Under the pieces are notes generated by a model, which saw only the letters and a program-made list of their open reading frames with translations, searched no databases and had not been told where the DNA came from. From an uncultured Candidatus Saccharibacteria bacterium (lineage in GTDB: Bacteria; Patescibacteriota; Saccharimonadia; Saccharimonadales; Saccharimonadaceae): a DNA stretch of 64,000 bases. This document shows positions 271 through 26,601 of this stretch, piece after piece (within the stretch, counting starts at the first letter, position 1; each line of letters begins with the position of its first letter). The DNA lies in NCBI GenBank assembly GCA_947166125.1, contig CAMVCW010000001.1, positions 62,001-126,000 of the forward strand, given 5' to 3'. The position numbers and the translations under genes were made by a program.

Positions 271-1866
271 CTAGCGGGCGAGGCAGCGGACAGAAAAACC
301 AAATCCCCTATTGTTCCCGTCGTATTGGTCGTATATGTAATACCCAACTGGGTTCATATTATTATCAATGCGTAAATAGTACGCACTTTTGTCACCATTA
401 AGTGTGCTAGATTGGTAAAAACCTATTAATCCAAATTGTTTTGTATCCCCGCTCACTATTAAACCAGACTTATTGAACCATATTGGTGATGTTGGCGAAT
501 TACGATAATAGTACTTTAAATTGGCAAAATCATTATCGCCGGAATAGTAATTGGAATACTCTGTAACTATAGGTAATCTCCAACCTTTAGGGCAAATGGA
601 ATTGTGCGGGTTATTTGATACGTTGTTAAAAGTGCTTTCTATTAAATTAGTTGAATTGTTGGAGGCGATTGCCGCAGTCCAGTTGTAATAATTACCGATT
701 AGCCCATGGTTATTACTAATGTATGTAGCATATGACTCTCCAATATTTAGAGAATATGGTTTATTATTGTTGTTTTTCCAATTAGTCCTATTCGCATTAG
801 TAAGTGTAGAGCTAATCGGGGTCCACTTTATTACATTATTTTCTATATTGTACCCATCCTGATAAGCTGCACTGGTAGCGTCGTTTAAATCTGTATCCTC
901 AGATGTAAGAGCTACGCTACTGTCTAGGTCTAAATCTAAGTTTTGGGTCATCCAGCAATGTCCATCTAGGAGTTTGGTGACCCAGTAGGTTTTGTTGTCT
1001 CTAATGTCTACTAATTGCACTTGAGATGCTTCGCCAGTAATATTGGCGGCATTACAAATATTGGTAGTCATATCTTGCATTTTGTAGTAGCTATTAGTCT
1101 CTCCAGTAGTAGGGTCTACTATGTCTACTTTGGTTTTACCAGCTAAGAAGAAGGCTCTTTCTAATGTAGTAGGAGAGATGGAAGAAGATGGATGAAGCAA
1201 AGCAAACTTCACCTGTCCAGTATAAGTACCAGCTGGTTGAGTTCCTTTAGTGTATATAGCATAGGTAGTAGTAAAAGTAGAACCTTCTTGCATATCAAAA
1301 GTACCAGGATCTCTAGATGCTACATTGGTCCAAGTATTTGGTATTAAGCCATAGGTATTATTGTATTCTGCTGGGATAGTAGGAGTATAATTGCCGGCTA
1401 CTGGAGTTAATTTCATGGCCCAACTAGATGTATCCTCACCGGTAGAAGGTTTAGATGTGTTTAGTCCAGTAGGAATATCGTAGTCTTCACCTAGATCTAT
1501 GGAAGATAAGGTATTCTTACCATCTATATCGTTAGTAGAACCTATGGCGTAGATAACATAACCATCTTTATCGTTGCAGGTAGTCTTCATGGTGGTTTTA
1601 CCAATATTGTCTTTATAAGTTCCAGATATCATAGAAATGGTATGCTCACTATTGATGGTAGCATTAAGAGTGCAAGATACTGGTATTGATAATGTAACCT
1701 TATCTACACCAGAGCCATCTATAGCAGAAGAATGAGAAATCCTAAAACCAAGTACAAAAGCAGAAACAGCTAGAACAACAACAGAAACTAACAATACATT
1801 ACGGAAAGCATAGTAGAAGAAGTCTATTCTACTACTCATTAAAGATTGTTTTACTTTGTGGCCCAT
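271..1866 (-). CDS. FISUMP-type surface protein (Fibrobacter succinogenes major paralogous domain-like), N-terminal TM segment
   Basis: Motifs GHCWMTQNLDLDLD, NSICPKGWRLP and C-terminal FSVRCLAR; N-terminal hydrophobic segment; paralog of 25006-26601. Confidence 0.8.
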   Translation of the reverse strand: MGHKVKQSLMSSRIDFFYYAFRNVLLVSVVVLAVSAFVLGFRISHSSAIDGSGVDKVTLSIPVSCTLNATINSEHTISMISGTYKDNIGKTTMKTTCNDKDGYVIYAIGSTNDIDGKNTLSSIDLGEDYDIPTGLNTSKPSTGEDTSSWAMKLTPVAGNYTPTIPAEYNNTYGLIPNTWTNVASRDPGTFDMQEGSTFTTTYAIYTKGTQPAGTYTGQVKFALLHPSSSISPTTLERAFFLAGKTKVDIVDPTTGETNSYYKMQDMTTNICNAANITGEASQVQLVDIRDNKTYWVTKLLDGHCWMTQNLDLDLDSSVALTSEDTDLNDATSAAYQDGYNIENNVIKWTPISSTLTNANRTNWKNNNNKPYSLNIGESYATYISNNHGLIGNYYNWTAAIASNNSTNLIESTFNNVSNNPHNSICPKGWRLPIVTEYSNYYSGDNDFANLKYYYRNSPTSPIWFNKSGLIVSGDTKQFGLIGFYQSSTLNGDKSAYYLRIDNNMNPVGYYIYDQYDGNNRGFGFSVRCLAR

Positions 1867-1903
1867 CTTTTAACCTCACTTATATATATGATTACTACTA
1901 CTC

Positions 1904-2085
1904 CCCCATGTGGTGCCACTATATTAATGGGGATTAACAAAAATGGCACCGCAAGGGTGTTACAAGCTAATGATTTGCGCCAATTGAACTAACCCAAATC
2001 TAGGCTTCCTTGCGATGCCATTGATATTCAGGTTAGTCTGATATTAAAATATCAGCGCTTCAAAACCATTAACTTGTAACATCCT
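1904..2085 (-). ncRNA. Candidate structured 5' leader RNA, copy 1 (upstream of FISUMP gene)
   Basis: P1 GTTACAAGTTAATG (2080-2067) pairs with CATTAGCTTGTAAC (1972-1959); inner helix CTAACC/GGGTTAG encloses segment A AATGGCATCGCAAGG; segment B CCTTGCGGTGCCATTTTTGT lies just outside P1; downstream CCCCAT/ATGGGG hairpin encloses segment C; same architecture at 24793-24997. Confidence 0.6.
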
Positions 2086-2141
2086 AATTATAGCACACAG
2101 AAAAAAGTTAGCGCAAGCAAAAAAATCACCTCTAGGAGTGA

Positions 2142-24741: not shown

Positions 24742-24792
24742 ATATTCAATATTAAGGTGGTTTTGTTTTTGGTGAAATAATGATACAATTAA

Positions 24793-24997
24793 GGTGCAGT
24801 ATTTCAATTGTTTTATAACAAAGCAATTTTTAATTTAAGTTTAGTTACGTGATAACAATGGCGCCGTAAGGTTTCAAAGTCGCGTAACTTGCTTTGGTTA
24901 AACGATTGAGATACTGCACCCCTTGCGGTGCCATTTTTGTATAACTACCCCGTTTACATAAAATGGCATCACAAAGACCAGACAACTAAACAGGGTA
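24793..24997 (+). ncRNA. Candidate structured 5' leader RNA, copy 2 (upstream of second FISUMP gene)
   Basis: P1 GGTGCAGTATTTCAATTG (24793-24810) / CGATTGAGATACTGCACC (24903-24920); P2 AGTTACGTGA / TCGCGTAACT; segments A 24857-24871, B 24921-24935, C 24962-24976; P4 TACCCCGTTTA / TAAACAGGGTA. Confidence 0.6.
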
Positions 24998-25005
24998 ATA
25001 CATAT

Positions 25006-26601
25006 ATGATCCATAGTGATAAAACAAATAATTACGCGGAATTCTTTTATAAAACTTTCCGCAACATTCTTCTAGTTTCGGCCCCACTCACTATCATTTC
25101 CGCCTTAATCTTATCATTACCCCACAGCTCTGCCTACAGCTCCAGCACAGACAGCGTAGCCTTGACTCTGCCATCTGCTTGTAGCATTAGCGCTAGTGTA
25201 GTCACACCACATACCATTACTCTAGTTAATGGGCAAAAACAAGATGACATAGGTAATACCAAGATTAATGCTTATTGTAATGATAATAATGGTTATTTTA
25301 TCTATGCTATAGGTAGTAGTAATGATATAGCTGGTAATACAGACTTAATTAGTAGCGTTAATGACAATTATAATATCCATACTGGTATTTATCCTACTAC
25401 ACTTACTACTTCCACTCCTTCTTCTTGGGCTATGAAGTTAAGTAGTAATAATGGTACTTATGCTCCTACTATAACTCCAAGCTACGCCAACTATACTACA
25501 ATTCCTAGTGCCGATACCATAGTAGCCTATAGAACATCTGGTACTGGCATGGATATTAATACAGATTTAACCGGTTCCTACTTTAATACTACTTACCAAA
25601 TCTATGCTAACCCTATCCAGCCAGCAGGAACCTATCTAGGTAAAGTTAAATATACTATGACGCATCCGTATGATGCAACACAGCTGACTACCATAGAAGA
25701 AGCTTATGATATTGCCGGGAAAGATAAAGTAACCATTACAGACCCCACTACTGGAGAAACTATTGGTAGCTATTATTCAATGCAAGATATGAGCGATAGA
25801 ATATGCAATCTAGTTAACTATTACGAAACAGAAGAACAATTAGTGGATGTTAGAGACGACAAAATTTACTACGTCTCTAAGCTAACTGATGGACATTGTT
25901 GGATGACGCAGAACCTGGACTTAGACCTAGACCCAGCTAAACCATTAACTTCAAATGATACGGACCTTACAGACCATTCACTTACTGGAGCCTATGTAGA
26001 TGATTATAGCTATGATATGAATACTGGCATTACCACCTGGACACCAGAAAGAAAAACTATAGACTTTCAAAATACTGCAGTAAATGGCTGGGCTAGCGAT
26101 AATAACAATCCATATTCTGCCAGTAAAACCGATAATACTAAAACTGGCCATACGTCGCTTGGCAATTATTATAACTGGCCTGTGGCCATAGCTAGTAATA
26201 ATTCTTCTTCGCTGATACAAGATACATTAAATAATACAGCAAATAACCCTAAGAACTCTATTTGTCCTAAAGGTTGGAGATTACCTATCATATCTAGTGA
26301 GCCCGAAACATTATCTGGCTCCACTAATGAATTTGCGAGATTAAACTACTTATACAATAACAATTCAGGTGTCTCTGATGCAAATTTAATTATTGCTCCA
26401 TTGTGGTTTACGCGCTCAGGCTCAATAGATGGTAACGGGAATTTAGTTAACTATAATACCAATAGTAACTGTTGGTCTAGTACTGTTGTTAGGGATACTT
26501 CTGCCTATTACGCACTATTTAGTGAGTATTATGTTAATATGATTGGAGGAAAGAACATTTCAAGGTATTATGGTAGATCAGTGCGGTGTGTGGCGAGGTA
26601 G
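25006..26601 (+). CDS. FISUMP-type surface protein, second paralog
   Basis: GHCWMTQNLDLDLD, NSICPKGWRLP, CWSSTVVRDTSAYY, RSVRCVAR; start MIHSDKTNN at 25006. Confidence 0.8.
   Translation: MIHSDKTNNYAEFFYKTFRNILLVSAPLTIISALILSLPHSSAYSSSTDSVALTLPSACSISASVVTPHTITLVNGQKQDDIGNTKINAYCNDNNGYFIYAIGSSNDIAGNTDLISSVNDNYNIHTGIYPTTLTTSTPSSWAMKLSSNNGTYAPTITPSYANYTTIPSADTIVAYRTSGTGMDINTDLTGSYFNTTYQIYANPIQPAGTYLGKVKYTMTHPYDATQLTTIEEAYDIAGKDKVTITDPTTGETIGSYYSMQDMSDRICNLVNYYETEEQLVDVRDDKIYYVSKLTDGHCWMTQNLDLDLDPAKPLTSNDTDLTDHSLTGAYVDDYSYDMNTGITTWTPERKTIDFQNTAVNGWASDNNNPYSASKTDNTKTGHTSLGNYYNWPVAIASNNSSSLIQDTLNNTANNPKNSICPKGWRLPIISSEPETLSGSTNEFARLNYLYNNNSGVSDANLIIAPLWFTRSGSIDGNGNLVNYNTNSNCWSSTVVRDTSAYYALFSEYYVNMIGGKNISRYYGRSVRCVAR

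Follow-up and report, generated by a model that had tools for sequence, protein, structure and literature searches.

Saccharibacteria have very small genomes and live on other bacteria, and little is known of how their genes are controlled. A 64,000-nt stretch of DNA from an uncultured Candidatus Saccharibacteria bacterium (the window, from whose first base positions are counted here) raises this question at a single locus. In a preliminary description of the window, a candidate structured RNA leader was placed on the minus strand upstream of a FISUMP gene, with a loop segment (A) and a downstream segment (C) that could each pair with the same intervening segment (B). Is this leader an RNA element in its own right, is it new, and what might its alternative pairings do?

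Copies of the leader in the home genome

Every segment that had been named in the leader (copy 1) was found exactly where it had been placed (Table 1), and the gene behind it was confirmed as FISUMP by a TIGR02145 match of its 531-aa product (52.3 bits against a cut-off of 41.65), a Pfam model match falling below its own cut-off. The limits of two features had to be redrawn: the proposed interval of 1904-2085 is in the right place, but the element begins at the -10 box and its conserved part reaches the Shine-Dalgarno sequence and start codon, past both proposed ends, and P1, described as 14 bp, is a real helix but has 19 pairs, of which the 14 are the lower part. The 5' strand of P1 begins at the expected transcription start, an inference from spacing, as the start site was not measured. 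No -35 match accompanies the -10 box of copy 1, and a promoter scan returned no minus-strand two-hexamer promoter here. The folding energy of the copy 1 region is -76.1 kcal/mol (z = -8.2), and none of 200 shuffles was as good.

Table 1. Coordinates in the window of the parts of leader copy 1, of the gene behind it and of leader copy 2.
Feature	Position	Strand	Remarks
Leader copy 1, whole element	2092-1866	minus	-10 box through Shine-Dalgarno sequence and start codon
Extended -10 promoter box TGCTATAAT	2087..2094; TATAAT 2092-2087	minus	
P1, 5' strand	2063..2081	minus	about 6 nt after -10 box; 2081-2063 pairs with 1976-1958
P2, 5' strand GCGCT	2054..2058	minus	
Small hairpin GATAT-TTTA-ATATC	2040..2053	minus	U-rich J2/3 strand
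P3, 5' strand (approximate)	2026..2038	minus	from constrained folds of all copies
Segment A AATGGCATCGCAAGG	2008..2022	minus	P3 apical loop; partner of B
P3, 3' strand (approximate)	1986..1998	minus	
P2, 3' strand GGCGC	1977..1981	minus	
P1, 3' strand	1958..1976	minus	last bases and next two form 5' strand of hairpin T
Hairpin T, 5' strand CACC	1959-1956	minus	
Segment B CCTTGCGGTGCCATT	1942..1956	minus	also 3' strand of hairpin T
Hairpin T, 3' strand GGTG	1950-1947	minus	
U-run TTTTT	1939..1943	minus	after hairpin T
Segment C AGTGGCACCAC	1910..1920	minus	partner of B
Hairpin around C, CCCCAT/ATGGGG	1932-1927/1909-1904	minus	
Shine-Dalgarno-like GTGAGG	1874..1879	minus	
FISUMP domain protein gene	271..1866	minus	531 aa; N-terminal membrane/secretion segment; ATG start
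Leader copy 2	24784..24942	plus	type 2 3' leader; covariance model 112 bits at G000:C1:86784-86942

When the home genome was searched with the copy 1 leader, many matches covered the region between B and the start codon, or B alone. The stretches around the matches were taken and a covariance model was then applied, giving 39 full copies in this 816-kb genome with scores of 91-141 bits. All 39 have a common layout, in which an extended -10 box is followed about 6 nt later by P1 and then by P2 and P3, with A kept in the P3 loop and B directly after P1; TG-n-TATAAT is conserved in nearly all of them, and only some copies have a small hairpin in J2/3. The sequences of P1, P2 and P3 are unlike in every copy, yet the helices form each time. 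Among 20 copies, 92.7% of P1/P2 cells were paired, compared with 69.6% after shuffling and 30-42% in slid controls, and double changes occurred in 19 of 21 pairs (home-genome copies); for P2 by itself, 80% of cells were paired and all five pairs had double changes. Between B and the N-terminus the copies can be grouped into a few types, each 90-100% identical internally, and the 3' leader types of the home genus retain C.

A FISUMP-type or related secreted protein is encoded downstream of nearly all copies whose contig continues, so that the homologues expected at other FISUMP genes do exist, preceding some 35 further genes of this type in the home genome. They include the second copy that had been postulated within the window (Table 1), which is followed by a FISUMP-type ORF starting near 25006 (FISUMP match at C1:88128-88595). 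The element does not simply travel along with the gene family, since it is absent from three complete FISUMP genes, whose leaders are short and ordinary.

Inserts are present between C and the gene at G000:C1:135037 (minus strand), C2:119980 (plus strand), C1:232506 and C5:5097, which place the leader more than 150 nt away from its gene; two of them have a common repeat (TGCATAATTCATTATGTTTCGGGAGC...). Contigs of this assembly end within or just behind the repetitive part of a leader at G000 C1:1, at C4:1 and at the ends of C2, C3 and C5, and these repeats appear to break the assembly. A weak match at G000:C3:118971-119117 (L165:688-798), with parts resembling P1 and A, is not followed by a gene in order and is possibly a decayed copy.

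Distribution, novelty and downstream genes

A first model found matches in 53 of 295 genomes of the family, representing 18 of 61 genera. When a second model was made from 28 diverse sequences, matches came from 119 of 393 genomes in the class, spread over 38 of 153 genera and several families, with two of them lying outside the order. Because strict filters were used in these searches, the counts are minimum values. The 287 genomes sampled across the phylum contributed no match beyond the class Saccharimonadia, and the family is confined to this class as far as it has been sampled. Among named records, those with the 3' leader of the home genus are Saccharibacteria MAGs, including one from dairy cattle duodenum.

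The expectation that no Rfam family would match was borne out: when the window and 14 divergent loci were compared with the 4227 families of Rfam 15, only tRNAs reached the gathering score, and the best match below threshold was rncO, at 19.1 bits against a cut-off of 43. Rfam matches were considered at the gathering and E-value thresholds and rejected as nothing but chance. A literature search, outside whose scope most subscription journals lay, found no earlier description of the leader. It is near certain that the leader represents an RNA family. In kind it is a candidate leader RNA attenuator or orphan riboswitch; what appears to be new is the family, its architecture and its copy number. 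The compensatory changes and the same-strand position between promoter and start codon satisfy the criteria for a structured cis-regulatory leader.

The proposed link to FISUMP genes is a feature of the home genus, where the first downstream genes encode FISUMP and related secreted proteins; it does not extend to other genera, in which restriction-modification and other accessory genes follow. These encode N6/N4, EcoRI-type, type III and C5 DNA methyltransferases, a type II restriction enzyme, secreted lipoproteins belonging to the Ltp and DUF4352 families, a T4SS pilin, a resolvase, an NHL protein, an OmpA-like protein and many small membrane proteins without a family. These presumed targets of the leader are accessory genes and face other cells or foreign DNA. 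In four genomes of one genus (L076-L079 in G068, G238, G011 and G189), leaders that are 90-96% identical are located 3' of alaS with different genes or operons behind them. The -10 box on one side and the Shine-Dalgarno sequence and start codon on the other mark the exact limits of this identity, with unrelated flanks beyond, and these limits are as expected for a function as promoter and 5' UTR. The arrangement suggests that the region 3' of alaS is an exchange hot spot.

Elsewhere, in a sequence of about 11.3 kb (L207, IMGVR_UViG_3300029305_004784), the leader and a gene for a small secreted protein adjoin a tyrosine-recombinase gene, and neighboring genes resemble those for phage terminase, portal and capsid; this is probably the boundary of a Saccharibacteria prophage. 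At L083 and L148, two tandem leaders within 200-500 nt stand ahead of the same small genes.

Strands predicted to compete for segment B

Covariation in the larger alignment proved massive. Across genera, 97.1% of cells in P1 and A:B were paired, compared with 77.2% after shuffling and 28-51% in slid controls, and 17 of 25 pairs had double changes (28 sequences). For P1 these figures were 97.6% of cells and 11 of 12 pairs. A:B, with 96.7% of cells paired and double changes in 6 of 13 pairs in the 28 sequences, was upheld as a pseudoknot. In copy 1 the complementarity of A and B extends over 15 nt with one G-U. Matched A and B strands scored 26.0 and permuted partners 19.3 +/- 0.4, and in L090 the two segments were rewritten together (AAAAAAGGTGACCATGTGT with GCACGTGGTCGCCTTTTTT). 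The home-genome and cross-genus sequences are related, and the permutation and shuffle counts therefore overstate independence. At the level of sequence comparison, the family and its P1, P2, P3 and A:B pairings can be regarded as demonstrated.

The tail of P1 is always complementary to B as well, which gives a putative hairpin, T, of 4-7 bp with the U-run directly after it. The stem score of T was 13.96 for matched strands and 11.90 +/- 0.20 for permuted strands, a difference of about ten standard deviations, and none of 2000 permutations reached 13.96. T was rewritten in step in L124, L128 (GACAACC/GGTTGTC-C-T8), L154 (GACGACC/GGTCGTC-C-T6), L152 (GACAGTC/GGCTGTC-C-T5), L091 (GCAGCC/GGCTGC-C-T6) and L090 (GGCGAC/GTCGCC-T6). 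Furthermore, alignment column 179 in B tracks column 163 in the P1 tail and not column 101 in A (A4), which shows that T is more than a by-product of A:B. In genera other than the home genus, the 3' half of A is complementary to the strand that precedes P3, with a score of 15.86 compared with 13.54 +/- 0.34 for permuted partners, and 21 of 54 elements reached p<=0.05. A search of the home genome for a J2/3 strand that could pair with A gave none.

The alternative A:B and B:C pairings that had been envisaged are both real in the home genus, while C is patchy in other genera, where C-like complements to B are nevertheless enriched (12 of 44 elements at p<=0.05). The B:C duplex of copy 1 has an energy of -20.6 kcal/mol, and the mean for the home genus is -21.3 kcal/mol, compared with about -27 for A:B. 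Elsewhere A:B averages about -23 kcal/mol, the cost of the pseudoknot being excluded in both cases, and T has a mean of -6.5 kcal/mol among home-genome copies and of -7.3 in the other genomes. The same comparative evidence lends good support to T, to pairing of the pre-P3 strand with A outside the home genus and to C within it, all of them as predicted pairings.

Proposed attenuation and the readings set against it

The leader is probably, though far from securely, a cis-acting 5' transcription attenuator with a pseudoknot antiterminator; the mechanism is inferred, in the absence of RNA data. Transcription would start at the first base of P1, and P1, P2 and P3 would fold so as to display A in the P3 loop, leaving B as the strand for which all partners would compete. 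Emerging B could pair with the P1 tail, forming the short hairpin T followed by U5-6 and leading to termination, or could enter the A:B pseudoknot, in which the A-tract of the loop, an A-rich stretch 5' of A, would take up the U-run and permit readthrough into the gene. In many genera the strand just 5' of P3 may occupy A, making four competing strands, and in the home genus downstream C would also compete for B. The start site, termination at T, the direction of control, the existence of a ligand and the signal that decides the outcome, for which a metabolite, a protein, temperature or the rate of folding may be considered, are all inferences.

Two criteria for an attenuator are met, in that a hairpin followed by U4-8 lies between promoter and gene in most elements, and A:B takes the 3' strand of T and is thus an alternative that excludes the terminator hairpin. 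The suggestion that A:B might itself be the terminator was set aside: T is nearer to the U-run, is local and covaries with the P1 tail where A is constant, which makes T the likelier terminator and A:B its competitor. T is generally short (5-7 bp), and because copy 1 has only the 4-bp CACC/GGTG stem, termination would be weak there and the case for attenuation draws more on the family than on copy 1, at which a terminator scan found none. The predicted energies favor A:B, so that T could act only if A were somehow restrained, and the home genus yielded no strand pairing with A. Because C lies 3' of the U-run and is made later, it cannot act on termination there; it may act on translation or on refolding.

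Control could instead be translational, as the preliminary description implied, with the choice between A:B and B:C deciding whether a downstream helix hides the Shine-Dalgarno sequence. The strong B:C duplexes of the home genus and the enrichment of C-like complements elsewhere speak for such a switch, as do type 2 leaders, in which this sequence was predicted to be open with B free (0.65-0.76) and closed with B blocked (0.17-0.34) in 3 of 4 copies computed. Over all home-genome copies, however, the unpaired probability was 0.44 with B free and 0.39 with B blocked, without consistent effect; elsewhere the values were 0.44 and 0.52, and several leaders (L132, L138) leave almost no room for C. 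Predicted accessibility thus has no consistent direction and gives no general support to a translational switch, which we consider unlikely. It is quite unlikely that the leader is a passive stabilizer, in which a long helix from the first base, together with the pseudoknot, blocks 5' end-dependent decay without any switching. P1 does start where transcription should begin, the helices are conserved in shape and not in sequence, and many unrelated genes lie downstream, but a stabilizer has no need for T and its U-run, for the pre-P3 strand or for C, all of which show matched complementarity.

The sharp boundaries, the unrelated genes downstream in different genomes, the many copies, the resolvase and restriction genes among the cargo and the one copy beside a phage integrase gene might point to a function in DNA, as a recombination or single-stranded hairpin site of a mobile cassette. 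Such a role is very unlikely: the boundaries are a -10 box and a Shine-Dalgarno sequence with start codon, which are irrelevant to a recombinase, all checked copies are sense-oriented upstream of an ORF where the contig allows, and the structure carries the logic of a terminator. Integron- or transposon-like cassette sites were likewise judged less likely, given that conservation breaks off precisely at the promoter and the start codon. The near identity of the 3' part among many copies would be compatible with a duplicated gene family that repeats its folding by chance, but this explanation is refuted by the structured 5' part, which differs in sequence between copies and still pairs, and by the recurrence of the RNA in 38 genera with other genes.

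As a probable attenuator with a pseudoknot antiterminator, the leader resembles four-strand attenuators of the trp type in that the 3' strand of the terminator (B) is captured by an upstream strand (A), which outside the home genus can itself be occupied by a still earlier strand. It differs in that the antiterminating pairing is a pseudoknot across the long P1, the downstream genes are not biosynthetic, and the leaders that were read, without a systematic search, showed no leader ORF. In preQ1-I, SAM-II and fluoride riboswitches, bases in a 5'-domain loop pair with sequence beyond the closing helix that is part of the expression platform, much as loop A pairs with B 3' of P1. Unlike these pseudoknotted riboswitches, the leader has no Rfam match, far longer stems, only limited conserved unpaired sequence, no known ligand and no common pathway among its genes. 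Like the orphan cis-regulatory candidates from comparative RNA surveys (PMC2864571, PMC8632094, PMC11109978), it is defined by covariation upstream of genes and its ligand is unknown; unlike them, it is restricted to Saccharimonadia and reaches 39 copies in a small genome. The 50-genome survey among these studies makes no mention of Saccharimonadia.

One RNA device common to about 39 surface-protein genes in an 816-kb genome, and to restriction and secreted-protein genes in relatives, provides a testable handle on a whole regulon and possibly on what these epibionts sense. It also offers native expression control for Saccharibacteria, for which inducible expression systems are lacking (PMC11665869). 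The layout of pseudoknot versus terminator, with private stems in each copy, constitutes an unusually rich covariation set from a single genome. More tentatively, the leaders may form a riboswitch-like class through which a single signal, originating perhaps in the host cell or the phage environment, jointly sets dozens of surface proteins in some species and restriction-modification and accessory genes in others. As to the mostly unpaired core that a riboswitch would conserve, 43 of 56 elements from other genera have an AUAA(A/G)C-like string behind A and 20 of 56 contain UGUGAA/GUGAAU, but these strings are rare in the home genus, at 3 and 1 of 39, respectively.
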